From an uncultured Alphaproteobacteria bacterium (GTDB lineage: Bacteria > Pseudomonadota > Alphaproteobacteria > HIMB59): a stretch of 64,000 bases of DNA. The translations under genes and the position numbers were made by a program. Positions 2,374 through 64,000 of this stretch are shown here, piece after piece. The stretch is from contig CACKFO010000008.1 in assembly GCA_902599405.1 (NCBI GenBank), positions 1 to 64,000 of the forward strand, written 5' to 3'. Every line of letters starts with the position of its first letter. The stretch's first letter is position 1. The notes below the pieces were generated by a model. It made no database searches, was not told where the DNA came from, and saw only the letters and a list, made by a program, of their open reading frames with translations.

Positions 2374-3522
2374 ATGAGATTAGATAACTGCTTAAATTTT
2401 AAAGATTTCAGGAAGTTAGCCAATAAAAAACTTCCATCTCCCGTATTCCATTATATCGATGGTGCTGCAGATGATGAAGTAACATATAGAAGAAATACAT
2501 CGGCCTTTGATGATGTTGATTTAATACCAAACGTATTAAGAGGTGTAAAAGATGTTGATTTATCTACAACTATTTTTGGAAAAAAAATAGATTTACCTTT
2601 TTATTGTTCACCAACGGCTCTCCAGAGAATATTTCATTACGAAGGAGAAAGAGCAGTAGCTAAGGCAGCTCAAAAATTTAATACTATGTTTGGTGTGTCT
2701 TCTTTGGCTACAGTAAGTGTAGAGGAAATATCAAACCTCGTGGATACGCCAAAGATGTTTCAATTTTATTATCACAAAGATAAGGGATTAAACAATTCAA
2801 TTCTTCAAAGAGCAAAAGATGCTAATTTCGATGTTATGGCTTTGACTGTTGATACTATAACAGGCGGCAATAGAGAAAGAGACATAAGAACTGGTTTTAC
2901 ATCACCTCCTAAATTTACTTTATCAAGCATATTCAGCTATGTTACTAAGCCAACATGGGCAATTAATTATTTAACTAAAGGCAAATTTGAACTTCCACAT
3001 CTTCAAGAATATGTAAAAGAGGGAACTAATACAGCAATTTCAATTGGTAATTACTTTTCTACTATGCTCGATCAAGATATGAATTGGAAAGATGCTGAAA
3101 AATTATGTTCTGATTGGGGTGGCCATTTCGCATTAAAGGGAATACTAAGTGTAGAAGATGCAAAAAGAGCAGTGGATATTGGATGTACTGGAATTGTCGT
3201 ATCTAATCACGGAGGAAGGCAATTAGATGGTGCGAGATCACCTTTTGATCAGTTAGCTGATATAGTTGAGGCAGTAGGAGATAAAGTAGATGTAATTTGT
3301 GAAGGGGGTATCCAAAGAGGTACTCATATGCTTAAAGCTTTGTCATTGGGAGCTAAAGCTTGTGCTGGAGGAAGACTTTATTTATATGCATTGGCAGCTG
3401 CTGGACAAGTAGGTGTAGAAAAAGCTTTAAGTATTTATAAAACAGAGTTGGAACGAGATATGAAGTTGATGGGCTGTAAAAAAATATCTGACCTTTCTAC
3501 CAATAATATTAAATTTAAGTAA
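2374..3522 (+). CDS. lldD: FMN-dependent alpha-hydroxy-acid (L-lactate) dehydrogenase
   Basis: 382 aa, the usual family length. The family oxidises L-2-hydroxyacids such as lactate with FMN and passes electrons to quinone (dehydrogenases) or oxygen (oxidases). Visible features: the FxxxxxxKLPSPVFHYIDGAADDE N-terminus, the FMN-binding ALQRIFHYEGERAVAKAA region, and the catalytic VSNHGGRQLDG with His near residue 279, followed by the GGIQRG phosphate-binding loop (EGGIQRGTHMLKALSLGA). Lactate is the commonest substrate, but glycolate, mandelate and other hydroxyacids are used by close relatives. No lactate permease gene is adjacent. Confidence 0.85.
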   Translation: MRLDNCLNFKDFRKLANKKLPSPVFHYIDGAADDEVTYRRNTSAFDDVDLIPNVLRGVKDVDLSTTIFGKKIDLPFYCSPTALQRIFHYEGERAVAKAAQKFNTMFGVSSLATVSVEEISNLVDTPKMFQFYYHKDKGLNNSILQRAKDANFDVMALTVDTITGGNRERDIRTGFTSPPKFTLSSIFSYVTKPTWAINYLTKGKFELPHLQEYVKEGTNTAISIGNYFSTMLDQDMNWKDAEKLCSDWGGHFALKGILSVEDAKRAVDIGCTGIVVSNHGGRQLDGARSPFDQLADIVEAVGDKVDVICEGGIQRGTHMLKALSLGAKACAGGRLYLYALAAAGQVGVEKALSIYKTELERDMKLMGCKKISDLSTNNIKFK

Positions 3523-3593
3523 ATTAAATTATAGTTGCTGTCGTTGTCACTAATCTTAAAGATTTTATAATATAAACTGTTTAATAGAATCTT

Positions 3594-4649
3594 ATGTTCA
3601 TCAAATTATTATTAAAATCAGTATTTATATATTTATTTACTCTAAATTTGCATGCACATGACCCAAAAAATTGTGACGTGCTTCAAAACTATGATTTTTC
3701 TGGTTTTGAAAGCTGGAAAATTGAAGTTGTAAATAGATCGAACGAATTTGGGCTAGATGAGGATTTTGTATCAAAATTAATTGCACCATATGAGGTAAAT
3801 AAAAGAGTTATTGAAAATGATAAGTGCCAGCCAGAATTTACTTTAACTTTTTCAGAATATATTGAAAAAAGAAATTCAGATACAAGAATTCAAAATGGAA
3901 TTAATAATAAAAGTAAATACAGTAATTTATTAGATAAAATTGATAACTATTATAATGTTCAATCAAGATTTATTTTATCTATATGGGGTTTAGAAACTGC
4001 TTACGGAAAAATTACAGGCAATTATCCTGTATTAGAAAGCCTTTTAACCATGTCATATGACGAAAGAAGAAGAAGATATTTCACTAAAGAATTATATAAC
4101 GCTCTTAAAATTCTCGAGCAAGGACACATTAATGTAATTGATTTCAAGGGCTCTTGGGCAGGAGCTATGGGTCAAAATCAATTTATGCCTTCAAGTTTTT
4201 TAAACTACGCTCAAGATTTTAATAATGATGGCAAGAAGGATATTTGGACTGACACAGAGGACTCACTCGCTTCTATTGCAAGATATTTACAAGGGGTAGG
4301 GTCAAATAAATGGGATCCAAATTACACTTGGGGTAGAGAAGTTATCCCCCCAGAAAATGTTAAATCTTTAGAGCCTAAGTTGTTTGTAAAAAGAGAAAAA
4401 GGTTGTTTAGCAGTAAAAAAATTATCAAAAAAATTACCTTTAAATGAATTTAGACTAATGAATTTTAAAAAGATGAATGGTAATTCTCTAGATAATTTAG
4501 ATATTAATAGCTATTTATTAAGGATGGGTAGGGAAGAGGGTGATTACAGGTATTTTATTGTTTATGATAATTATTTAAATATTCTCTCTTACAACTGTTC
4601 TAATTATTATGGTCTTTCAGTTGGATTGTTAAGTGATAAATTTAAATAA
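3594..4649 (+). CDS. mltB: MltB-type lytic murein transglycosylase
   Basis: 351-aa secreted protein with a hydrophobic signal segment (about residues 3-19, ending near LHAHD). The SLT_2/MltB catalytic core has the active-site Glu in WGLETAYGK (about residue 134) and the downstream GSWAGAMGQNQFMPSSF and DLxDSLASIARYL-type motifs. It cleaves peptidoglycan glycan strands to 1,6-anhydroMurNAc ends in the periplasm. The C-terminus is longer than the core domain and lacks an obvious PG_binding_1 repeat. The next gene starts 17 bases before its stop, and dacC follows, making a three-gene cell-wall set typical of alphaproteobacteria. Confidence 0.85.
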   Translation: MFIKLLLKSVFIYLFTLNLHAHDPKNCDVLQNYDFSGFESWKIEVVNRSNEFGLDEDFVSKLIAPYEVNKRVIENDKCQPEFTLTFSEYIEKRNSDTRIQNGINNKSKYSNLLDKIDNYYNVQSRFILSIWGLETAYGKITGNYPVLESLLTMSYDERRRRYFTKELYNALKILEQGHINVIDFKGSWAGAMGQNQFMPSSFLNYAQDFNNDGKKDIWTDTEDSLASIARYLQGVGSNKWDPNYTWGREVIPPENVKSLEPKLFVKREKGCLAVKKLSKKLPLNEFRLMNFKKMNGNSLDNLDINSYLLRMGREEGDYRYFIVYDNYLNILSYNCSNYYGLSVGLLSDKFK

Positions 4650-5406
4650 TATTAATAAAATACTGTTTTTACTGTTTTTATCATCATGTACAATTACTTC
4701 TATTGAAACTGTCGATGATAAAAAAATAGATGAAGAGGTCGCAACTCAAGAATACTTTAAAAAATCAGAAGTTATTATATCACCACTTGATGACTACAAT
4801 ATTGAGCTAAGTGTTATGGAAAAGTTTGTTATAGATGAAAGAATTAAAGGCAATAATATCCATCATTCTAATTTGCCTATACCAAGTGTGGTAAAACTGT
4901 CAGATCCCAGCAACCTAGATAACAATATTATTGTTAGAAACATTAAGTTAGATACTGAAAATAGACTTTCATTAAGTCAAGAAATTATTGATAAAATATC
5001 ACTAAATACAAAAGTATATTTAGAATATTTAAAAGATGAATCAATAATTCTAAGAAATGTTGTTGACTCAAAAGAAGAGAGTAAGATAAAGATGGATGAT
5101 ACAGAAATTTCATTTGAACAGTTAGATCAAGATCAAACTGAAATTAGTGAAAAACTTGATTATGAGAAAATTAAAACTCTAGATATTAAAAATTCTAAGA
5201 AACAAAACACTATATTAGTTGAAATTTATAAAGATATAAAAATAGCAAAGCTTAAAACTAATAAAATCAAGAATTTAGGATTGTTTTATGAAGAAAATGA
5301 AGAGGGAGTTAAGGTTTTTGCTGGCCCATTTCTAAAGAGTGATATAAATCTTAAGTTAGATTTTCTGATTAAAAATGGATATTTGAATGCAAAAAAAACC
5401 CCTTAA
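4633..5406 (+). CDS. RlpA-like lipoprotein with a degenerate DPBB region and C-terminal SPOR-like end
   Basis: 257 aa, GTG start overlapping mltB by 17 bases. The N-terminus is a lipoprotein signal (FLLFLSSC, lipidated Cys near residue 19). The middle resembles RlpA's double-psi beta-barrel: HHSNLPIPSVVKL parallels the AHxTLPLPSxVRV motif, and a RLSLSQEIIDKI stretch parallels RIIDLS. The family's ASYYG and NDRGP residues are missing, so glycan-cleaving activity is doubtful. The last 35 residues (EGVKVFAGPF...LIKNGYLNAK) look like a SPOR domain, which binds denuded septal peptidoglycan. Position between mltB and dacC supports the RlpA assignment. Sequence support is moderate; synteny support is stronger. 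Confidence 0.62.
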   Translation: MINLNNINKILFLLFLSSCTITSIETVDDKKIDEEVATQEYFKKSEVIISPLDDYNIELSVMEKFVIDERIKGNNIHHSNLPIPSVVKLSDPSNLDNNIIVRNIKLDTENRLSLSQEIIDKISLNTKVYLEYLKDESIILRNVVDSKEESKIKMDDTEISFEQLDQDQTEISEKLDYEKIKTLDIKNSKKQNTILVEIYKDIKIAKLKTNKIKNLGLFYEENEEGVKVFAGPFLKSDINLKLDFLIKNGYLNAKKTP

Positions 5407-6514
5407 TTTATTATTTATAGCAATTATTATTCTATTTCCTAAACAATCTCTTACTATTGAAAGTTTGGCAAAAACGGCCCTTGTAATCGATTTATCAACA
5501 AACGAAGTTCTTTTAGAAAAAAACTCTAAAGCCAAAACATATCCATCAAGTATGACCAAGATGATGACCGCTCTTGTAGCCTTTGAAAAAATCAAAAATG
5601 GTACTTTATCATTAGATCAAGAGTTTTTAGTAAGTAAAAAGGCATGGAAAATGGGCGGTTCGAAAATGTTCATAGAGGTAGACAAAAGAGTCAAAGTTTA
5701 TGATTTGTTACTAGGAATTATCGTTCAGAGCGGAAATGATGCCTCGATTGCTTTAGCAGAGGGTATATCTGGCTCTGAGGAAATTTTTGCTGTTGAGATG
5801 AATAATTTAGGTAAAAAAATAGGACTCACAGAGACTAATTTTACAAATAGTAGTGGCTGGCCTGATGACAATCATTACACAACAGCTGAAGATCTTGCAA
5901 AAATAGCTGAGTACACGATTAAAAATCATTATGAATTATATCAAATGTACAAATTAAGTGATTTTACATATAGCGGGATCAAACAAGATAACAGAAATCC
6001 ACTCCTATATACATTTGAGGGGTCTGATGGCTTTAAAACAGGTTATACAGAAGCAGCTGGCTACGGTTTGGTTGGATCTGCAGAAAGAGGGGATAGGCGC
6101 CTGATTATTGTTCTAAATGGACTAGACTCTTCCAAATCAAGGGCCCAGGAGTCACTAAGATTAATGGATTGGGGTTTCAACAATTTTCAATTAGTAGATT
6201 TTTTTAAAAAAAATGAGGTTATTCAAGAAGCTGATACTTGGCTAGGTAAAGACAACAAAGTAGACCTAGTTGCTTTAAACGATATAAGTGTGAGCATTCC
6301 AAAAGCACAACTATCTTCTGCTAAAGTTAATGTGATAGTTGAGGAGCCTATTGCAACTCCTATTCAAAAAGGCGACCAAATAGCCAAACTTCAAATATCG
6401 TTTGCTGATAAGAATACTGAATTTCCTTTATTTTCAGGTGAGGACATAGAGCAAAAGAATTTCTTTTCAAGAATATTTTCAGCTATTTATTATATCATTC
6501 TTGGATCTAACTAA
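5387..6514 (+). CDS. dacC: D-alanyl-D-alanine carboxypeptidase (PBP5/6 family)
   Basis: 375 aa, normal length. It removes the terminal D-Ala of peptidoglycan pentapeptides at the inner-membrane surface. All three penicillin-binding motifs are present: SMTK (Ser about residue 55), SGN (about 115-117) and KTG (about 217-219). A PBP5 C-terminal beta domain follows, and the last about 17 residues (FFSRIFSAIYYIIL) form a likely amphipathic membrane-anchoring helix. The signal segment is about residues 7-22. It overlaps the RlpA-like gene by 20 bases and is followed 15 bases later by tmk, so the six-gene run to metG is probably one operon. Confidence 0.92.
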   Translation: MQKKPLNLLFIAIIILFPKQSLTIESLAKTALVIDLSTNEVLLEKNSKAKTYPSSMTKMMTALVAFEKIKNGTLSLDQEFLVSKKAWKMGGSKMFIEVDKRVKVYDLLLGIIVQSGNDASIALAEGISGSEEIFAVEMNNLGKKIGLTETNFTNSSGWPDDNHYTTAEDLAKIAEYTIKNHYELYQMYKLSDFTYSGIKQDNRNPLLYTFEGSDGFKTGYTEAAGYGLVGSAERGDRRLIIVLNGLDSSKSRAQESLRLMDWGFNNFQLVDFFKKNEVIQEADTWLGKDNKVDLVALNDISVSIPKAQLSSAKVNVIVEEPIATPIQKGDQIAKLQISFADKNTEFPLFSGEDIEQKNFFSRIFSAIYYIILGSN

Positions 6515-6529
6515 ATAATATCATATAGA

Positions 6530-7129
6530 ATGAAAGTAATCAGTTTTGAAGGTTTCGAATATTCTGGAAAATCGACACAGATAAAACTTTTAAAGAAATA
6601 TTTTATAAAAAATAATATCAAATCTACTTTTACTAGAGAGCCTGGAGGTAATAAAGATCTAGAAAAGATAAGAAATGTGATTTTAAAGTCTAATTTCAAT
6701 AATTTAAGTTTAATAATGTTTTTCTTTGCATCTAGATTTACATTAATATCTTCAATTAAAAAGAATGATTTCATTGTATTTGATAGATTTTTTGACTCTA
6801 CTTATGCTTATCAAAAATATAATTCTAAAGAAAAAAAACTTATTATCAGTTTAATTAAGTTAATTGATAAGAATTTTATCCCAAAGATAACTTTTTATTT
6901 GAAGTTAGATAAAAAAAATTTAATAAGAAGGAAAGATAAAAGATTATATTCAAATAAATTTGATAAAAAATATTTTGGACAATTCTCAAGAATTCAAAAA
7001 AATTATGAAGAAATATCTAAAATAAAAATAGGTGAACGTAAGTTTGTTGCTATTGATGCATCACTATCTGCTAATGAAGTACATGACAAAATCATATTAA
7101 ATCTAAAAAAATGCAAATTGATAAAGTAG
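6530..7129 (+). CDS. tmk: thymidylate kinase
   Basis: 199 aa. It phosphorylates dTMP to dTDP for DNA synthesis. The P-loop reads EGFEYSGKST (about residues 7-16), slightly unusual where most enzymes have EGxDGAGKST. FTREPGG (about 34-40) and the dTMP-contacting DR motif in VFDRFFDSTYAYQ (D85, R86) are present, and a basic lid segment (RRKDKRLY) follows. The ATG is 15 bases after dacC. The 3' end overlaps holB by 19 bases, the same tmk-holB coupling seen in many alphaproteobacteria. Confidence 0.9.
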   Translation: MKVISFEGFEYSGKSTQIKLLKKYFIKNNIKSTFTREPGGNKDLEKIRNVILKSNFNNLSLIMFFFASRFTLISSIKKNDFIVFDRFFDSTYAYQKYNSKEKKLIISLIKLIDKNFIPKITFYLKLDKKNLIRRKDKRLYSNKFDKKYFGQFSRIQKNYEEISKIKIGERKFVAIDASLSANEVHDKIILNLKKCKLIK

Positions 7130-7899
7130 TAAATACTATAAAATCTGAGAGTAGTGGCTTTTATTTATTAGAGACTACTAATAGTGAGAGTATTTCATAT
7201 TTAGAGGAACAAATTTTAAATAGTTTCTATGAGAAACAATATGAAATAGACTCAAGTTTTATTGTTCTAGAGCCCGAAGAAAAATCAAAATTTATAACAA
7301 TTGACCAAGTAAGAAAAATGAAAAAAGAGTTTCTACATACAAACGTATTAAACCTTAGCAAAGTAATATTTGTCAGAGAGGTAAATTATTTAAATATTAA
7401 TGCTTTAAATGGACTTTTAAAAATCATCGAAGAAATACCATCAAAAACCTATTTTATTTTTTGTTCTAAAAACCTAATAAGCTTACCTGAAACGATAATT
7501 TCAAGGGCCAGAGTTATCAGAGATTTGAATTCAAAGATAAATTTGAGTGATTTAAATTCAATGAAAGAAGACATAGTAAGGCAAAATCAAAATATTTCAG
7601 AGGAATTAATACACTCTCTTATTAACCCCTTCATTGATCTAAAAAGCACTGATTTTTTTGAAAAGATTAAACTATTTAATAAAGATCAAATAAGCATATG
7701 TTCATTAATATTTTTAAAAATACTCAAATACTATTTAAGAAGTAATTTAAATAATAAAAAACTATACAAGTACCTATTAAAACTTCATTCAGATTATTTA
7801 ACTGATGTAGATGAAAGTTTAAAATTCAATACATTAACAAATGACCTAATTTCAATCTATTTTACAAGATTAAATTCTAATCTTATTAAGCATGTCTAA
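7111..7899 (+). CDS. holB: DNA polymerase III delta' subunit-like clamp-loader protein
   Basis: 262 aa, shorter than the roughly 330-aa E. coli protein. The delta' subunit is the rigid stator of the clamp loader and does not hydrolyse ATP; consistent with this, no Walker A is present. Recognisable features are ITIDQVRKMKKEF, then the conserved NALNGLLKIIEEIPSKTYFIFCSKN helix-strand and the following SRARVIRD, which correspond to the sensor region ending in an SRC-like turn. A DnaX-type zinc module is not apparent. Position between tmk and metG supports the call. It overlaps metG by 8 bases. Confidence 0.82.
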   Translation: MQIDKVVNTIKSESSGFYLLETTNSESISYLEEQILNSFYEKQYEIDSSFIVLEPEEKSKFITIDQVRKMKKEFLHTNVLNLSKVIFVREVNYLNINALNGLLKIIEEIPSKTYFIFCSKNLISLPETIISRARVIRDLNSKINLSDLNSMKEDIVRQNQNISEELIHSLINPFIDLKSTDFFEKIKLFNKDQISICSLIFLKILKYYLRSNLNNKKLYKYLLKLHSDYLTDVDESLKFNTLTNDLISIYFTRLNSNLIKHV

Positions 7900-9412
7900 T
7901 AATTATTTTACAACTCCGATTTATTATGTGAACGATAAACCCCATATTGGACATGCTTACACCTCAATTGCTGTTGATATATTAAAAAGATTTTATGATT
8001 GTAGAGGCCTCAATTCTTATTTTCTAACAGGAACAGACGAGCATGGACAAAAAGTTGAAAGAGCTGCTCAAGAAAAAAATATTGATCCTCAAAAATTTAC
8101 GGATATGGTTTCAGAAAATTTTAAAGATTTAAGTAATTTATTAAATTTATCTAATGATGATTTTATTAGAACAACAGAAGAAAGACATAAAAAGTCTGTT
8201 CAAAATCTATGGAGAGTTCTGTTGGAAAAAGATGAAATTTATTTGTCCAAATATAGCGGATGGTATTCTGTAAGAGATGAAGCTTTTGTAGCTGATAATG
8301 AAATAGTTGAAAAAAATGGAAAAAAATATAACAGTTTTGGATCTGAATTATCTTGGGTTGAAGAAGAGTCATATTTTTTTAGACTTTCTAAATGGCAAGA
8401 CAAACTGTTAAATTTTTATAAAAATAATCCAAATTTTATAGTCCCAAAATCAAGATCTAATGAAGTTATTAAATTTGTTGAGTCAGGGTTGAAAGATCTA
8501 TCCGTTTCTAGAACAACATTTAAATGGGGAATTGATGTCCCTACAGATGAAAAACATATTGTTTATGTTTGGTTAGATGCACTAACTAACTATATTTCAG
8601 CTTTAGATTATCCAAATATAAATTCTGATTTATATAAAAAATATTGGCCTGGGATACATGTAGTAGGGAAGGATATAATAAGATTTCATGCTATTTTCTG
8701 GCCTGCTTTTTTAATGGCTGCAGAGTTAGATCCACCAAAGCAGATCGTAGCGCATGGTTGGTGGACAAATGAGGGTCAAAAAATTAGTAAAAGTCTTGGT
8801 AATGTAATTGACCCTAAAGAATTGATTGATGAATACGGCCTAGACTCAGTAAGATATTTTCTTTTCAGAGAGGTCCCATTTGGCAATGACGGTGATTTTT
8901 CAAAGGTGGCTATCAAAAACAGAATTAATGGTGAATTGGCGAATAACTATGGAAATTTAATACAAAGAATACTTAGTTTCATTTGTAAAAATTTAGAACA
9001 AAATATTGATTTAACTGAAGATAATTTCAATTTTGAAATTTTAAAACAAATTAATGACTCTGAAAAAGAGTTGTTTGACTATATGGAAAATTATAAATAT
9101 GACGAATACCTAAAAAAATTATTCTTATTTATGAATGATTTAAATAATTATGTCGATAAATCTGCTCCCTGGGTATTAAAAAAAACAGATCCTGAACAAA
9201 TGAAAAAAGTTTTGGCTAATATTTGCCTATGCATTATCAGGGTTAGTCAATATTTAGTTCCTTTTATGCCTTCAAAAACCTCAGAAGTATTCAATTTATT
9301 CGAAAATACGAATAATATTAAATTAGATATTTTTGATAATTTTAAGGAGGTAATTAACTTAAAATTTCTAAAAATACGACAACCTGAACCTTTATTTACT
9401 AAAATTGAGTAA
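7892..9412 (+). CDS. metG: methionyl-tRNA synthetase
   Basis: 506 aa, the short form lacking the C-terminal tRNA-binding (Arc1p-like) domain. It charges tRNA-Met. Class I signatures are clear: HIGH (residues 18-21, in NDKPHIGHAYTS), TGTDEHGQKVERAA, the WLDALTNYISAL and VVGKDIIRFHAIFWPAFL segments, and KISKS (residues 297-301, in GQKISKSLGNVIDP). The connective domain lacks a four-Cys zinc knuckle, as in the zinc-free MetRS subgroup. It overlaps both neighbours (holB and tatD) by 8 bases. Confidence 0.95.
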   Translation: MSNNYFTTPIYYVNDKPHIGHAYTSIAVDILKRFYDCRGLNSYFLTGTDEHGQKVERAAQEKNIDPQKFTDMVSENFKDLSNLLNLSNDDFIRTTEERHKKSVQNLWRVLLEKDEIYLSKYSGWYSVRDEAFVADNEIVEKNGKKYNSFGSELSWVEEESYFFRLSKWQDKLLNFYKNNPNFIVPKSRSNEVIKFVESGLKDLSVSRTTFKWGIDVPTDEKHIVYVWLDALTNYISALDYPNINSDLYKKYWPGIHVVGKDIIRFHAIFWPAFLMAAELDPPKQIVAHGWWTNEGQKISKSLGNVIDPKELIDEYGLDSVRYFLFREVPFGNDGDFSKVAIKNRINGELANNYGNLIQRILSFICKNLEQNIDLTEDNFNFEILKQINDSEKELFDYMENYKYDEYLKKLFLFMNDLNNYVDKSAPWVLKKTDPEQMKKVLANICLCIIRVSQYLVPFMPSKTSEVFNLFENTNNIKLDIFDNFKEVINLKFLKIRQPEPLFTKIE

Positions 9413-10187
9413 TTTAATAGACAGTCATGTAAATTTTGGTCATGAATTACTTAAAAATTCAGTATCAGATATCTGTAAAGATGCTCTAGAAAATAACATA
9501 GAGCGAATTTTAAGTATAAATTCTAATATACACGAGTTTCAAAAAGATATTAATTTAATTAAAGGTTTTAATTTTGTCGATATCACTTTAGGTCATCACC
9601 CAAATAATACTCTTGATATCAAACCTGAGGAAATAAAGACTCTTTTAAATGAAAATATTAAAAAATTTAAAGATAGAATTGTTGGAATAGGGGAAACAGG
9701 CTTGGATTATCATTATGATATTCCTAAAAATAAGCAAATAGAGAGCTTAGAGATACATTTAGATGCAGCTAGTGTTTATAATTTACCGTGTATAATTCAT
9801 ATGAGAGATGCTGAAGAGGATATGATTAAAATTTTAACTAAATACTCAAAAAAAATAGATGATATTCTTATACATTGTTTCACTGGAAGTGAAGAATTTG
9901 CAAAAAAATGTATTGATTTAGGTTGTTTTTTTTCTTTGTCAGGCATTATTACGTTCAAAAATGCAAATAAATTAAGAGATACAATTAAAATACTACCAAT
10001 TAAAAAAATTATTTTTGAAACTGATAGTCCTTATCTTACGCCAGACCCTTTAAGAGGTAAAAGTAACAAACCAAGCTACTTAAAAATTATAGTTGAAAAA
10101 TATTGTGAAATTACTGGAAACGACTACATTAATACATGCGAAATTAGTACTTATAATTACAAAAAGCTTTTTAAAATTAATGACTGA
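9405..10187 (+). CDS. tatD: TatD-family metal-dependent hydrolase with an altered HxH motif
   Basis: 260 aa; TTG start at 9405, chosen because it restores the conserved LIDSH N-terminus. TatD enzymes are TIM-barrel DNA exonucleases with a two-metal centre. Present ligands: Glu in GIGETGLDYHYD, His in IIHMRDA, His in IHCFTGS and Asp in FETDSPYLTP. The first motif, normally DSHxHLD, reads DSHVNF, so the second His is Asn and one metal site may be weakened. GHHPN replaces the usual GVHPH. It follows metG with an 8-base overlap, the standard alphaproteobacterial order, and overlaps the MBL gene by 8 bases. Confidence 0.85.
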   Translation: MSNLIDSHVNFGHELLKNSVSDICKDALENNIERILSINSNIHEFQKDINLIKGFNFVDITLGHHPNNTLDIKPEEIKTLLNENIKKFKDRIVGIGETGLDYHYDIPKNKQIESLEIHLDAASVYNLPCIIHMRDAEEDMIKILTKYSKKIDDILIHCFTGSEEFAKKCIDLGCFFSLSGIITFKNANKLRDTIKILPIKKIIFETDSPYLTPDPLRGKSNKPSYLKIIVEKYCEITGNDYINTCEISTYNYKKLFKIND

Positions 10188-10962
10188 AAAAACTGAAATA
10201 AATGTATTAGGGTGTGGATCAAGTTTTGGAGTCCCTTTATCTCATGACATATGGGGTAATTGTGATAAATCAAATCCTAAAAACCAAAGAACACGGCCTT
10301 CAATACTTTTAAAAAAAGCAGGTAAATCAATACTAATAGACACAAGTCCTGATTTAAGAAAACAGCTAATTGATAATAAAATTGATAATATTGACTCTGT
10401 TATATACACACATTCTCATGCCGATCATATACATGGAATTAATGATTTAAGAGCAATTTCACTAATAAACAAAAAAAAAATACCAATATACTCCGATGAA
10501 ATAACTTTAAATATTTTAAAAAATAGTTTTTCTTATCTATTTACTAAAGATGTAAAGCACGGATATGAACCTATTCTTAATTCGAATAAAATTGAGACTA
10601 AATTCTTTGAAATAAATGGTTTTAAAGTTGAAGCTATCCAACAAAATCATGGAAATATTGACTCTTTAGGTTTCATTTTTGACGAAAAAATAGCATACAA
10701 TTTAGATGTAAAGTTTTTCTATGATAAGAACTATTTTGATAGAATAAAAGGTATTGAATGCTGGTTTGTTGGTTGTTTGAGATATGACGAACATCCATCG
10801 CATGCATCCTATCAAGAAGTTATCGATTGGACTCAATTAGTTAATGCAAATCAGACGTTTTTAAGTCATATGACTGCCCATATAGATTATGAAACTGAAT
10901 ATAAAAAACTGTCTAATAATCGTGTATATCCAGCTTACGACGGATTAAAAATAACAATCTAG
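10180..10962 (+). CDS. metallo-beta-lactamase-fold hydrolase (PhnP-like)
   Basis: 260 aa from the ATG at 10180, which overlaps the tatD stop. A longer in-frame start at 10093 would bury the N-terminus inside tatD and is unlikely. The N-terminus INVLGCGSSFGVP and the zinc motif THSHADHIHG (H78, H80, D82, H83) are typical of the PhnP/RNase Z branch. QQNHGNIDSLGF and the late HMTAHIDYE supply further ligands. Members hydrolyse phosphodiesters, for example cyclic ribose phosphate in phosphonate use. No phosphonate genes are nearby, so the physiological substrate is unknown. The tatD-MBL pairing is a common alphaproteobacterial arrangement. Confidence 0.8.
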   Translation: MTEKTEINVLGCGSSFGVPLSHDIWGNCDKSNPKNQRTRPSILLKKAGKSILIDTSPDLRKQLIDNKIDNIDSVIYTHSHADHIHGINDLRAISLINKKKIPIYSDEITLNILKNSFSYLFTKDVKHGYEPILNSNKIETKFFEINGFKVEAIQQNHGNIDSLGFIFDEKIAYNLDVKFFYDKNYFDRIKGIECWFVGCLRYDEHPSHASYQEVIDWTQLVNANQTFLSHMTAHIDYETEYKKLSNNRVYPAYDGLKITI

Positions 10963-60348: not shown

Positions 60349-60440
60349 TAAATAAAAATATATCTATATATGAGATATAAATTAATGCGATTTTATTTGA
60401 AAATAACTTTTTTTGGCACATGAGATACAATTATATCTTA

Positions 60441-60485
60441 TGGCGCGCTCTGCAGGATTCGAACCTGCGACCCTCTGCTTAGAAG
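60441..60485 (-). pseudogene. tRNA-Arg(UCU) 3' half, probable attachment site
   Basis: On the minus strand this reads CTTCTAAGCAGAGGG, then the T arm GCAGGTTCGAATCCTGC and a 3' acceptor ending GCGCGCCA. That is the 3' part of tRNA-Arg from the anticodon loop (anticodon TCT) through CCA, with the T stem-loop intact. The 5' half (acceptor strand, D arm and 5' anticodon stem) is absent: the sequence diverges at the start of the anticodon loop. This is the classical displaced-3'-half signature of tyrosine-integrase insertion into a tRNA. It places the element to the right of this point. Confidence 0.82.
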
Positions 60486-60679
60486 GAATAAGTGCTTATT
60501 TCAAAAGACAACATAACTCAACAACTATAGAGATGTACCCTATTCTGTTTACCTTATGTGTACCTTTCTTGTTATATAAATACTAAACTTAACTAACATT
60601 ACAATACATTTGGGTACACAGAATTGGTAAGTTATTCATTATACAAAAATGATATTATTATTAATTTTAATCATTCTTT

Positions 60680-60747
60680 TGTGAAATTTTCGCCGTAATT
60701 AATTTGAATTCATATTAGTTTTAATTAATTTCATAACATTTAGTTAA
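60680..60747. repeat. 68-bp imperfect direct repeat, copy 1
   Basis: Aligns without gaps to 61201-61268, offset 521 bases, with about 12 mismatches by eye. Shared cores are TTTCGCC, TAATTAAT, ATTCATAT and TTCATAACATTTAG. It lies immediately 3' of the stop of the gene at 60754. Confidence 0.75.
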
Positions 60748-60753
60748 ACACAA

Positions 60754-61062
60754 TTACCCCTCTATAGTCAAAGGCTCAGGGTAATTGGTAAAAGCAGTAT
60801 CAGAAATTGGAGTCATTACAGCTGAGTCAACATCTACAACCTGAGCTCTACGCTTGGTTAACTCTTCATCTGATTGAAATTTTTGTAAGTGCTCCTTAGA
60901 TTGAAAGTGCATAACAGTATTTAATATGGTGTTATCGTTTGCTTGAGTTCCAGCAAATATAAAAGTCATTCCATATTCTTTTAATTTATCACTATTTTCT
61001 TGAACCATTTTTTTCCATTCTTGAAAATCTTTAATCAACTTAATCTGTCCTAGTACTAACAT
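60754..61062 (-). CDS. small ABM/ferredoxin-fold-like protein, unknown
   Basis: 102 aa with a good RBS (AAGGAGAT) upstream of the ATG. The body (LVLGQIKLIKDFQEWKKMVQENSDKLKEYGMTFIFAGTQANDNTILNTVMHFQSKEHLQKF) has the beta-alpha-beta rhythm and FQS/EHLQKF of small dimeric ABM-like proteins. No function is established. It is bracketed by the two copies of a 68-bp direct repeat, suggesting it entered or was duplicated as a unit. First gene of the element next to the att site. Confidence 0.65.
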   Translation of the reverse strand: MLVLGQIKLIKDFQEWKKMVQENSDKLKEYGMTFIFAGTQANDNTILNTVMHFQSKEHLQKFQSDEELTKRRAQVVDVDSAVMTPISDTAFTNYPEPLTIEG

Positions 61063-61099
61063 TTATAATCTCCTTATTATCTAATTGATAAAATTAAAT

Positions 61100-61134
61100 A
61101 TCTCTTACGAGAGATCAATACAATAATTGTATTG
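61100..61134. promoter_or_regulatory. two adjacent palindromes upstream of the ABM-like gene
   Basis: ATCTCT-TACG-AGAGAT (61100-61115) is followed directly by CAATACAA-TAA-TTGTATTG (61116-61134). They lie 38-72 bases upstream of the minus-strand start at 61062 and may be an operator. Confidence 0.4.
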
Positions 61135-61200
61135 GAAAATAAAAAACCTAGGCAGTTCAATAATAACAACTAGATGAAATATTTAATTTAATGCTTTTTT

Positions 61201-61268
61201 TGTGAGAATTTCGCCATAATTAATACAGATTCATATAAATTTTGATTAAATTCATAACATTTAGATAA
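61201..61268. repeat. 68-bp imperfect direct repeat, copy 2
   Basis: Partner of 60680-60747. It begins 9 bases after the stop side of the DUF1376-like gene (which ends at 61278), so each copy trails a minus-strand gene. Confidence 0.75.
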
Positions 61269-61277
61269 TAGTTATTG

Positions 61278-62123
61278 TTAGTCAGTAATAGATCCGTACT
61301 TTCGTTCACACCTATTAATTCTTTCAGAACTGTAGACAGGCAACCAACGACCCATTCTTTTTGCAAATTCCCAATCTTTTTTATCTTGTTCTTCTTGGTA
61401 ATCAGCTTCACTCTGTTCTATAAGGTTTTGTTGAATGTTAAACGAAGTATCTTCTAACCACTTATAGTTACTGATCCACTTATCAAGGGAAGTTATATAT
61501 CTGGGTTGATCTGAATACTGTTTTTGATGTTCTTTGTAGAGGATAAATAGGTGTTCGATACTAGGTATCTCTAAGTTTGGGTCATCAATGATTGATAAAT
61601 AATTCTTTACCGCTTGAACCAAACTCCCTCTTTTGTATTGGAGTTGATCCCACTCCCCTTTAATAGAAGACATAGTTTTATTCCAAAGAGATTTATCGAA
61701 CCTTGTTTCATTTCCCTTATCTATTTGTTTTAATTCTAATTCTGGTTCTAATTCTGGTTCTAATTCCTTATCCATTTCTATTGCATTTGCATTACCATTA
61801 TTCCAACGAATGTTTGCATTATTACTGAGAACCTTAGACTTATTCAATGCATGATCCCATTTCTCTTTGTCAGAAATATGAAAAATTTTTCCATTTTCTT
61901 TCTCAAAAAGATAATCAAAATTAACTTTAGCGGATCTAAATTTTTTTGGAGTTGTATTACAAATCTTTGCTAAATAACTATCATCGTCTTTGAGAGGTAT
62001 GCTATTATTTTCCCAAAGTTGTAATCCAAGCTTCCAAACACAACCTACTTCATATGGAGTTAACAAGTGAGTGGAAGCGACTTCATCAGATGTCGCTAGG
62101 TGGAGAAAGGGAAGTTTCTTCAT
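61278..62123 (-). CDS. DUF1376-like phage/element protein
   Basis: 281 aa. The N-terminal part (LATSDEVASTHLLTPYEVGCVWKLGLQLWENNSIPLKDDDSYLAKI) matches the DUF1376 pattern of phage replication-region proteins. The middle has a run of ELEP repeats, and the C-terminal part (SLDKWISNYKWLEDTS) resembles the tail of phage replisome organisers. The ATG overlaps the stop of a 42-aa gene by one base. It probably replicates or regulates the mobile element; biochemical role unknown. Confidence 0.68.
   Translation of the reverse strand: MKKLPFLHLATSDEVASTHLLTPYEVGCVWKLGLQLWENNSIPLKDDDSYLAKICNTTPKKFRSAKVNFDYLFEKENGKIFHISDKEKWDHALNKSKVLSNNANIRWNNGNANAIEMDKELEPELEPELELKQIDKGNETRFDKSLWNKTMSSIKGEWDQLQYKRGSLVQAVKNYLSIIDDPNLEIPSIEHLFILYKEHQKQYSDQPRYITSLDKWISNYKWLEDTSFNIQQNLIEQSEADYQEEQDKKDWEFAKRMGRWLPVYSSERINRCERKYGSITD
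61734..61767. repeat. 12-bp tandem repeat coding for the ELEP tract
   Basis: TTCTAATTCTGG occurs twice in tandem, with a third partial copy, inside the DUF1376-like gene. It gives an acidic low-complexity linker that could vary in length by slippage. Confidence 0.7.
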
Positions 62124-62251
62124 TACTCACTCACTTGATTTCCTTTTGTTAGATTTTCGGAATAATTATTTTCATCTATTGCTTGAATATAACCAATAAG
62201 ATTATCTGAGAGCTCTCTGATCTTCTCTAGTTCTTTAAGGATTTCACTCAT
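62123..62251 (-). CDS. 42-aa coupled small protein
   Basis: Starts with ATG at 62251 overlapping the stop of the HTH gene (ATGA) and ends TAATG over the start of the DUF1376-like gene, so it is translationally coupled at both ends. The sequence begins MSEILKELEKIRELSDNL, an amphipathic helix, with a polar tail. The function is unknown; its placement is the main evidence that it is real. Confidence 0.6.
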   Translation of the reverse strand: MSEILKELEKIRELSDNLIGYIQAIDENNYSENLTKGNQVSE

Positions 62252-62493
62252 TGTTGAACCACCCTACTACTAGCCAGGGCATTCTCTATATCTTCTCTCT
62301 TGTAAAGAACCTTTCTTCCAATCTTATGAAAAGGAAATAAAGATCTATTAGTGGATCTGTAAAACCTAAGTGAATTTGATGTATATATTGGATATTCTTT
62401 TGCGACTTCCTTCTCAGTTAGATAATCATCTTTCTGTTTCTTAGAAGAAATGTCATCACCCTCAATGAGGGATTGATATAAGTCTGTTGTCAT
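62248..62493 (-). CDS. excisionase/AlpA-like helix-turn-helix protein
   Basis: 81 aa from the ATG at 62493; an upstream GTG at 62517 is possible. The C-terminal part DYLTEKEVAKEYPIYTSNSLRFYRSTNRSLFPFHKIGRKVLYKREDIENAL is the typical MerR/excisionase winged-helix pattern, with a recognition helix and a KxGRKVLY wing. Such proteins direct excision or regulate element genes. It is the first gene of a three-gene coupled operon. Support for an element is consistent with the adjacent tRNA fragment. Confidence 0.76.
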   Translation of the reverse strand: MTTDLYQSLIEGDDISSKKQKDDYLTEKEVAKEYPIYTSNSLRFYRSTNRSLFPFHKIGRKVLYKREDIENALASSRVVQQ

Positions 62494-62571
62494 AATTATA
62501 TTATGCAAATTATTCACAGAATAAATCCCCCCTATCTTGGAGGTAGTTTAGAACTTTGATAGATATAAATA

Positions 62572-62751
62572 ATGGGTTGGTGGAATGGTGAATTTGATGA
62601 GAAAGAGTTAAAACCACAACAAAGAAAATGTGAGAAATGTGGCGAAGCTTCTGATGTTTTAGAGAAATGGAAGCATATAGAAGTCCATATTTGCTTAGAT
62701 TGTAGAAGAGAAATCTATATTGAGAATATTGACTATGTTGGCTATCATTAA
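62572..62751 (+). CDS. 59-aa zinc-ribbon-like protein
   Basis: Plus-strand gene starting ATG GGT TGG TGG. Two CxxC pairs (C20/C23 and C41/C44) fit a small zinc ribbon: RKCEKCGEAS and HICLDCRRE. There is no strong ribosome-binding site, which lowers confidence. The opposite-strand frame covering it is longer but has no such motif. Small zinc ribbons are common in phage and defence loci. Confidence 0.55.
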   Translation: MGWWNGEFDEKELKPQQRKCEKCGEASDVLEKWKHIEVHICLDCRREIYIENIDYVGYH

Positions 62752-62782
62752 ATGCATAAGACATATTTAATGGTCATATAGA

Positions 62783-63259
62783 GTGATAACAGAAATTATA
62801 TTTTTAATTTTCTTTGGATTTTCTTTTCTTGTATCAATAAATATTACACACCGTAGTTTTGAAATACCATTTCTTCTTACATTATTTATTTTATTAAATG
62901 GTTTCGCAGATTTTATTCTAATTGCTGGTGTATTAATGTCATTTTGGGTATTTATATCACAGGTTATAAATTTGAAAATTGATGTTCTCAATCCCATTTC
63001 CCCTTTAATTGCAATCTTCAACAAACAAGGAATTGTTACTTTTCTTTCAGCTTCTTTTATGTATGCGAATGTGTACTTTTGGTTATTCTATGGTTTAGGT
63101 AAATTGAAATTCAATTCTATAAAAGATGAGTCCTTATCAAGAAAAGGTACAAAAAAAAGAGAGGCACAAATAGAAAGAAAAAAAAATGCTTATTTTTATA
63201 TAGTTGGTAATTTTATAATTGGTTTCATAATTATTTTATTTCTGAACGCAAAATATTAA
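62783..63259 (+). CDS. small polytopic membrane protein, unknown
   Basis: 158 aa, GTG start. About four hydrophobic segments (roughly residues 3-18, 28-62, 78-104 and 136-156) separated by a basic, charged loop (SRKGTKKREAQIERKKNA). No recognised family. It lies in the element region and is followed by more small unknown genes. Confidence 0.6.
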   Translation: MITEIIFLIFFGFSFLVSINITHRSFEIPFLLTLFILLNGFADFILIAGVLMSFWVFISQVINLKIDVLNPISPLIAIFNKQGIVTFLSASFMYANVYFWLFYGLGKLKFNSIKDESLSRKGTKKREAQIERKKNAYFYIVGNFIIGFIIILFLNAKY

Positions 63260-63303
63260 TGGATATTGAATTAATTAAAATAGAATAAAATGTTAAATCT
63301 ATT

Positions 63304-63591
63304 ATGAAATTTTTTAAAAATAAATCTGAAGATGAAGCAGTTAAGGAGTTTGTTTCAGTATTAATGAATGCAAAAACAATATTAAAAAATGCAAGATTTT
63401 ATGAGAAAGAAACATTTGCATATTATAAAAGACTTATAAATTCTATGAAAAAGTTAAATAAAGTGTCTGGTTTTGTATCAAGAGAAGACGCGAAAAAATG
63501 GAAAATAGAAATTGAAAAACTTGCTGATAAGGAGATGAATAAATTAAAGAAGTACCACGATAAGATGAAAGAATTAGCAGGGAAAATCTAA
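63304..63591 (+). CDS. small charged helical protein, unknown
   Basis: 95 aa, Lys- and Glu-rich, predicted all-helical with two helical stretches (about 10-45 and 60-95). No signal or membrane segment is visible. It stops one base before the next gene starts. The family is not recognised. Confidence 0.55.
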   Translation: MKFFKNKSEDEAVKEFVSVLMNAKTILKNARFYEKETFAYYKRLINSMKKLNKVSGFVSREDAKKWKIEIEKLADKEMNKLKKYHDKMKELAGKI

Positions 63592-63592
63592 A

Positions 63593-63964
63593 ATGAAAAC
63601 TCTCTTAGCTCTATTGTTATTAATCCCTAGTTTGAGTTGGGGCAAAGAGGTTGCCTTAAAGTGTGATAGAGCTGAAGAGTATTTATCTGAGTCTGGTATT
63701 AACGAAACCTATATTTTAAATTTAAAGAAAAAAACCGTTGAGAATATTTTATCTGACGGCTCTACAGTCAGAAATACTTCAATAATTGAAATTACAAACT
63801 CATTAATTAAATTTAAAAAAGAAGGTTATTCCAGTTATGGAATAGGTGGACTTAACAGGTATACATTAGAGTTAACTGTCAGCGATAGATATAATGATGA
63901 AGATGAATCAATTAACACCGATATTTATTATCAATGTGAAATATTGGGTGAGAAAAAATTATGA
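63593..63964 (+). CDS. small secreted protein, unknown
   Basis: 123 aa. The signal peptide is about residues 1-17 (LLALLLLIPSLSWG, cleavage near SWG-K). The mature part is beta-rich with two Cys (LKCDRAEEY near the start and YYQCEIL near the end) that could form a disulfide. The next gene starts with a very similar signal peptide, suggesting a tandem family. No function is assigned. Confidence 0.6.
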   Translation: MKTLLALLLLIPSLSWGKEVALKCDRAEEYLSESGINETYILNLKKKTVENILSDGSTVRNTSIIEITNSLIKFKKEGYSSYGIGGLNRYTLELTVSDRYNDEDESINTDIYYQCEILGEKKL

Positions 63965-64000
63965 AAACCCTCTTAGCCACTTTAGTTATTTTATTTAGTT
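63961..64000 (+). CDS. start of a secreted protein (cut by window end)
   Basis: ATG at 63961 overlaps the previous stop by 4 bases (ATGA) and encodes MKTLLATLVILFS, a signal peptide close to that of the preceding gene. Only 13 codons are visible, so nothing more can be said. Confidence 0.55.
   Translation, partial: MKTLLATLVILFS

Follow-up and report, generated by a model that had tools for sequence, protein, structure and literature searches.

A satellite-like integrative element at tRNA-Arg(UCU) and a shared signal-peptide cassette in a HIMB59-type marine alphaproteobacterium

Introduction

PICMI phage satellites of the Vibrionaceae are small, integrated elements that carry variable accessory genes and no structural or capsid-remodelling genes, and their integrase (int), alpA and an integrase-overlapping gene (iolg) are all needed for excision (PMC10803314). 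The reported overlaps between int and iolg are 1, 4 or 13 nt; in the PICMI model AlpA corresponds to PF12728 (HTH_17) and a primase is mandatory, and the insertion site lies next to fis with a repeat of 17 bp (PMC10803314). Transduced marine islands have been described as VEIMEs and tycheposons (PMC10803314), the latter in Methylophilaceae (PMC10872708). Additive flexible islands at tRNA-Lys in Methylopumilus have 20-bp repeats of the tRNA 3' end, which flank variable cargo of mostly unknown function (PMC10872708).

The stretch of DNA analysed here (the window, 64,000 nucleotides) comprises bases 1-64000 of contig C8 in a draft genome of 1.26 Mb, whose host is a HIMB59-type marine alphaproteobacterium, and the contig continues past 64000. 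The integrative element that begins in the window is, like PICMI, small, without structural or capsid-remodelling genes and equipped with variable accessory genes, and it likewise has an integrase and a gene overlapping the integrase stop (here by 8 nt, and likened by position), along with a candidate AlpA (a weak HTH_17 match). In contrast to PICMI, it sits at tRNA-Arg(UCU) with a repeat of 47 bp, has no recognisable primase and no known helper phage, and carries secreted proteins as cargo; because no primase was found, it is not filed as PICMI. With VEIMEs and tycheposons it has in common, as judged from their descriptions, the linkage to a tRNA gene, a tyrosine recombinase, flexible cargo and a small streamlined marine host, while the signal-peptide segment shared by its cargo sets it apart on the same descriptive basis. 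The Methylopumilus islands are similar in that repeated tRNA 3' ends flank variable cargo whose function is mostly unknown, but the repeat here is 47 bp of tRNA-Arg(UCU), an integrase is adjacent and an empty site has been identified. The element itself is of an ordinary, known kind (tRNA-integrated and satellite-like) in a little-studied host clade, with an unusual organisation of its cargo, and the part worth following is the cassette that encodes the shared signal peptide. In the literature covered on HIMB59 islands, tycheposons and shared signal peptides, a coverage outside of which most subscription papers and all bioRxiv preprints lie, neither the element nor the cassette is described.

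Results and discussion

Insertion at tRNA-Arg(UCU)

The original prediction had placed an integrated element at the 3' half of a tRNA-Arg(UCU), a fragment that extends from the anticodon loop to CCA and lacks the 5' half of the gene. Such a displaced tRNA part is indeed present on the minus strand (Table 1), and ARAGORN found no complete tRNA in the whole window. A shared core of 45 bases, a reconstituted tRNA-Arg and an integrase had been expected beyond 64000. The second copy of the core exists, 7,930 bp from the first, although the exact direct repeat turned out to be 47 bp long; it forms the 3' part of a complete tRNA-Arg(UCU), and the last substantial gene before this intact tRNA encodes a 424-aa tyrosine integrase, so that both anticipated features were recovered on the continuing contig. 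At up to 3 mismatches the core has just two copies in the whole host genome. Exact copies occur in 40 stretches of GTDB contigs from uncultured marine Alphaproteobacteria, one of them named HIMB59, and an Rfam scan of the element found the tRNA alone.

The comparison with an empty-site relative that had been proposed could be made with L010, which identical flanks identify with genome G014. Its left flank, up to the core and including it, shows 99.7% identity, its tRNA-Arg(UCU) is intact, the near right flank is 95% identical, and none of the genes of the element lie between the flanks. Neither an insert-free relative that keeps the half tRNA nor the lack of a second core copy, which had been named as counter-evidence, was observed. 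The left copy of the repeat is the copy of the attachment site that bounds the element on the left. The element brings a copy of the tRNA 3' part with it, which leaves a complete tRNA next to the integrase, and the 3' part that was displaced lies at the opposite end. The sequences show the insertion with its repeat and an empty site in a relative, the integrase, ends that are near-identical in four host genomes and a middle that has been exchanged, and on these grounds this is very probably a mobile 7.9-kb integrative element that was inserted into the anticodon loop of tRNA-Arg(UCU) by its own tyrosine integrase. A half tRNA arising by chance is excluded, as the 47-bp exact repeat ends at the tRNA 3' end, and an ordinary tRNA duplication is contradicted by the empty site in L010.

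Table 1 Features of the element and its attachment sites (C8 coordinates lie beyond the window)
Feature	Coordinates	Strand	Remarks
Left 3.6 kb of the 7.93-kb element	60441..64000		remainder C8:64001-68370, outside window
Left copy of 47-bp exact direct repeat	60440..60486
Displaced 3' part of tRNA-Arg(UCU)	60441..60486	-	anticodon loop through CCA
102-aa protein, weakly DUF3764/DUF1330-like	60754..61062	-	E 0.0023, below cut-off
281-aa DUF1376-like protein	61278..62123	-	Pfam E 1.3e-3, below cut-off
42-aa small protein	62123..62251	-	conserved in left module
89-aa HTH_17/AlpA-like putative excisionase-regulator	62248..62517	-
59-aa protein, paired cysteines	62572..62751	+	near-identical protein in G035 element
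158-aa hydrophobic protein, cargo	62783..63259	+
95-aa protein, cargo	63304..63591	+
123-aa secreted cargo protein	63593..63964	+	N-terminal shared signal-peptide cassette
50-nt signal-peptide cassette	63593..63642	+	encodes MKTLLALLLLIPSLSWG
83-aa gene	63961..64000	+	start in window, ends C8:64212
253-aa integrase-overlapping gene	C8:66029-66790	-	TTG start; outside window
424-aa tyrosine integrase	C8:66783-68057	-	outside window
Right copy of 47-bp exact direct repeat	C8:68370-68416
Complete tRNA-Arg(UCU)	C8:68371-68447	-

Gene content

The integrase has Arm-DNA-bind_3 (PF13356) and Phage_integrase (PF00589) domains, both above cut-off, and matches PHROG 1 (integrase) with an E value of 5e-31. 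The excisionase-like HTH gene and the DUF1376-like gene that had been predicted were both matched, but below the Pfam cut-offs and, in the case of DUF1376, weakly. The 89-aa HTH protein gave an HTH_17 match of E 2.3e-4 (21.8 bits versus a cut-off of 27) and a match to PHROG 66, 'excisionase and transcriptional regulator', of E 6.9e-4, and a relative of it is present in the tRNA-Asp elements described below. The 281-aa DUF1376-like protein, which is 92-95% identical in three other elements, has a putative replication function. The 102-aa protein is near-identical in the elements of G023 and G035, is replaced in that of G013, and has a relative adjoining tRNA-Ala in G010 (L135).

No phage structural genes were found among the ORFs of the element in Pfam, nor in PHROGs for the left part and the integrase, and relaxase or conjugation genes were likewise absent among its ORFs in Pfam. 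No primase was recognisable in the element with Pfam, and the DUF1376-like gene stands in its place. PADLOC gave a weak HTH match and nothing else on the element, NCBIfam nothing useful for the backbone proteins, and the predicted structures of the 253-aa and 281-aa proteins (mean pLDDT 39 and 41) were too poor for use. The small unknown genes that had been noted are present as well, and one of them, the 123-aa cargo gene, is now seen to have at its start a signal-peptide segment found again at many tRNA genes. In the adjoining 83-aa gene the first 18 nt are exactly those of the commonest cassette form and the sequence is divergent thereafter, which resembles the outcome of a joint within the cassette.

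Related elements in the genus

Among 52 genomes of the genus, the same element was found at the same tRNA in G013, G023 and G035, with att copies 7.9-9.8 kb apart. The integrase DNA is 96.5-98.7% identical across these genomes, and in the left module, taken from att to the HTH gene, most of the aligned parts share 96-99% identity. Just outside the left att of G035, the host flank is down to 78% identity next to a near-identical element, which indicates that the element has moved between hosts. The ends are conserved while the middles are unrelated to one another apart from the shared signal-peptide segment, and the elements can be described as a family with conserved ends and exchanged cargo. 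Other genomes hold partial insertions. A 1.45-kb remnant is present in G029. In G019 both the half tRNA and the integrase are missing, but the right end of the element and one cargo gene remain beside the intact tRNA, and the site is best read as a decayed insertion that left cargo behind. A search for the integrase in 385 genomes of the class gave two distant matches and no others.

At tRNA-Asp(GUC) in G023 and G004, a related integrase (45%) is accompanied by AlpA-like HTH, Toprim primase-like and AAA_25 helicase-like genes, and G023 also has a 45-bp copy of the tRNA 3' end at a distance of 5.8 kb. The gene set of this small element (L092, G023:C13, about 4314-10202; L093, G004:C3) is nearer to the PICMI type than that of the element in the window. 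A different element occupies tRNA-Arg(UCU) in G045 (L086, C2, 2020-10410), with its own integrase at the half-tRNA end, an O-like/DnaD-like replication initiator, an 836-aa T5orf172 and helicase-like protein and a methyltransferase-like protein; its cargo is possibly defence. In G023, locus L127 (C1:185000-202000) contains two identical full-length tRNA-Gly(GCC) genes at 3463-3537 and 9320-9394 (78-bp repeat), and the 5.86-kb block between them holds a replication-initiator-like gene and two cassette-headed genes, with no recognised integrase.

Mode of transfer

With an integrase, an overlapping gene and an HTH_17/AlpA-like protein, and without structural genes or a relaxase, the gene content appears phage-satellite-like. 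Excision would involve the integrase and the AlpA-like HTH protein, perhaps together with the 253-aa protein, for which an action like that of IOLG is proposed solely from gene position, and the DUF1376-like protein may take part in replication. Transfer would occur inside the particles of a helper phage, which is the most likely route, while for the satellite lifestyle as such the chances are about even. Neither the integrase nor the att core was found in IMG/VR, and no record of an excised circle or of the element in a viral particle was found.

If the element derived from a temperate phage by loss of the structural genes, with integrase, HTH and replication-like genes retained, the phage type of the DUF1376-like and HTH genes would be explained, and the sites in G019 and G029 show that insertions at tRNA-Arg(UCU) do decay. 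Such an origin is nevertheless highly improbable: as judged from ORFs and matches, the four insertions keep the same intact ends and a size of 7.9-9.8 kb and all lack structural genes, which makes independent decay to one form unlikely. In addition, the tRNA-Asp element is likewise small and without structural genes, and 50,697 phage records contained no relative of the integrase or of the DUF1376-like protein. Alternatively, the element could be an integrative mobilizable element that is moved by a conjugative helper instead of a phage, since the architecture class (integrase, HTH gene and cargo at a tRNA) is the same and the searches turned up no phage record of it. Among the ORFs of the element, however, Pfam recognised no relaxase, and mobilization by conjugation is considered improbable.

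A signal-peptide cassette near tRNA genes

Using a slightly degenerate pattern with up to 3 mismatches, the 50-nt cassette was found at 46 sites in 29 of the 52 genus genomes. The reversed pattern gave no sites in the same genomes, and the cassette pattern gave none in 110 genomes of the sister family. With slightly looser matches among the fetched loci, the cassette heads about 27 unrelated mature families, including a polysaccharide lyase, an alginate lyase, dienelactone-hydrolase-like and FG-GAP proteins and many small proteins. Identity drops to background beyond the cassette and nothing farther out is shared between unrelated genes; the boundaries at 0 and 50 were set by the search pattern. 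Where unrelated genes encode the same residue, the codon is identical in 81% of cases versus 35% expected from codon usage, a figure that is biased upward as the loci were fetched by DNA pattern. This codon identity indicates that the cassette is shared DNA, and it contradicts convergent signal peptides. Cassette DNA was not found in IMG/VR, nor was the cassette peptide or a cassette-headed lyase found in phage records.

For all but one of the 46 copies the nearest tRNA gene is at most 6.4 kb away, with a median of 1.2 kb, and the remaining copy is on a 6.7-kb contig without a tRNA gene. Of the positions in G001, a genome in one contig, 23% are as close to a tRNA as this and the median distance is 16.8 kb; this baseline was taken from genome positions in general. 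As copies at one tRNA are not independent, about ten sites were counted, which gives a chance of about 2e-9 for such proximity. About nine tRNAs are concerned, namely Arg(UCU), Arg(UCG), Arg(ACG), Ala(GGC), Gly(GCC), Thr(GGU), Asp(GUC), Phe(GAA) and Cys(GCA). A small contrast comes from four versions in G000, G001 and G044 that are more diverged and lie 18-26 kb from any tRNA. Many cassette genes are on the 5' side of their tRNA, where the integrase would not place them, so that homologous exchange in tRNA-linked islands must also act.

The cassette as a possible recombination joint

In the vsa/vsp systems of mycoplasmas and the sap system of Campylobacter fetus, one conserved signal or 5' segment is recombined onto alternative downstream sequences, which belong to one surface-protein family within one genome. 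The cassette differs in that the sequences it heads are enzymes and small proteins with no relation to one another, spread over species, mobile elements and about nine tRNA genes. The presence of the same cassette on unrelated tRNA-side genes suggests that it is a place of cargo swapping. Perhaps, the cassette serves as a common joint for the exchange of cargo among tRNA-targeting elements and tRNA-linked islands of the genus, a possibility that is put forward tentatively. Through the short homology of 50 nt, whole reading frames would be swapped between elements and islands, a newly captured frame would be exported at once, and neighbouring units would be gained or lost whole.

Several loci are of this form. 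One and the same 475-aa esterase-like gene occurs in three settings, the element of G035, the decayed site of G019 and tRNA-Asp of G041, and the DNA upstream of it is different in all three; the similarity between the cargo of G000 and that of G013 begins 2 nt before the cassette ATG. The locus at tRNA-Arg(UCG) contains one cassette-headed gene in G030 and two in G044; in the alignment of the two genomes one whole unit has been gained or lost, and the region around the cassette matches both copies. Orphan cassette stubs that stop after 19-23 codons, as in L128 (G040:C1) at 7832 and 8933 and in L138, L149 and L150, look like scars of lost cargo. A joint would account for the arrays, the stubs and the swaps, and it is proposed with some reserve, from pattern and not from observed recombination.

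It may be instead that the shared signal peptide is just an ancient N-terminus that selection on secretion has conserved, without any joint. At the peptide level, diverged versions occur in 48 of the 52 genomes, including long ORFs of recurring length that share LTFKDG, which points to deep roots in the genus, and an old N-terminus of a gene family may account for some of the pattern. As an explanation of the whole it is less likely than not, given the codon identity of 0.81 versus 0.35, the different Pfam families of the mature parts (polysaccharide lyase, alginate lyase, dienelactone-hydrolase-like and FG-GAP), the orphan stubs and the one locus that differs between genomes by a whole cassette-headed gene.

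The cassette supplies a DNA tag, scattered over the genomes, with which the mobile secreted proteins of a genus can be followed. In streamlined open-ocean bacteria, whose genomes measure about 1.3 Mb, secreted enzymes such as polysaccharide lyases and esterase-like proteins, as well as small secreted proteins, may be exchanged continually. Should the cassette be a recombination joint, it would be a coding counterpart of recombination-site gene cassettes, and the acquisition of exoenzymes by such bacteria would be directly testable with long reads.

At tRNA-Arg(UCG) in L131 (G044), each of the cassette genes in tandem (around C1:613167 and 614298) has a GGGACAAATATGGGACACTAAAGATATAA stretch in front of it, which lengthens the direct repeat between the units.
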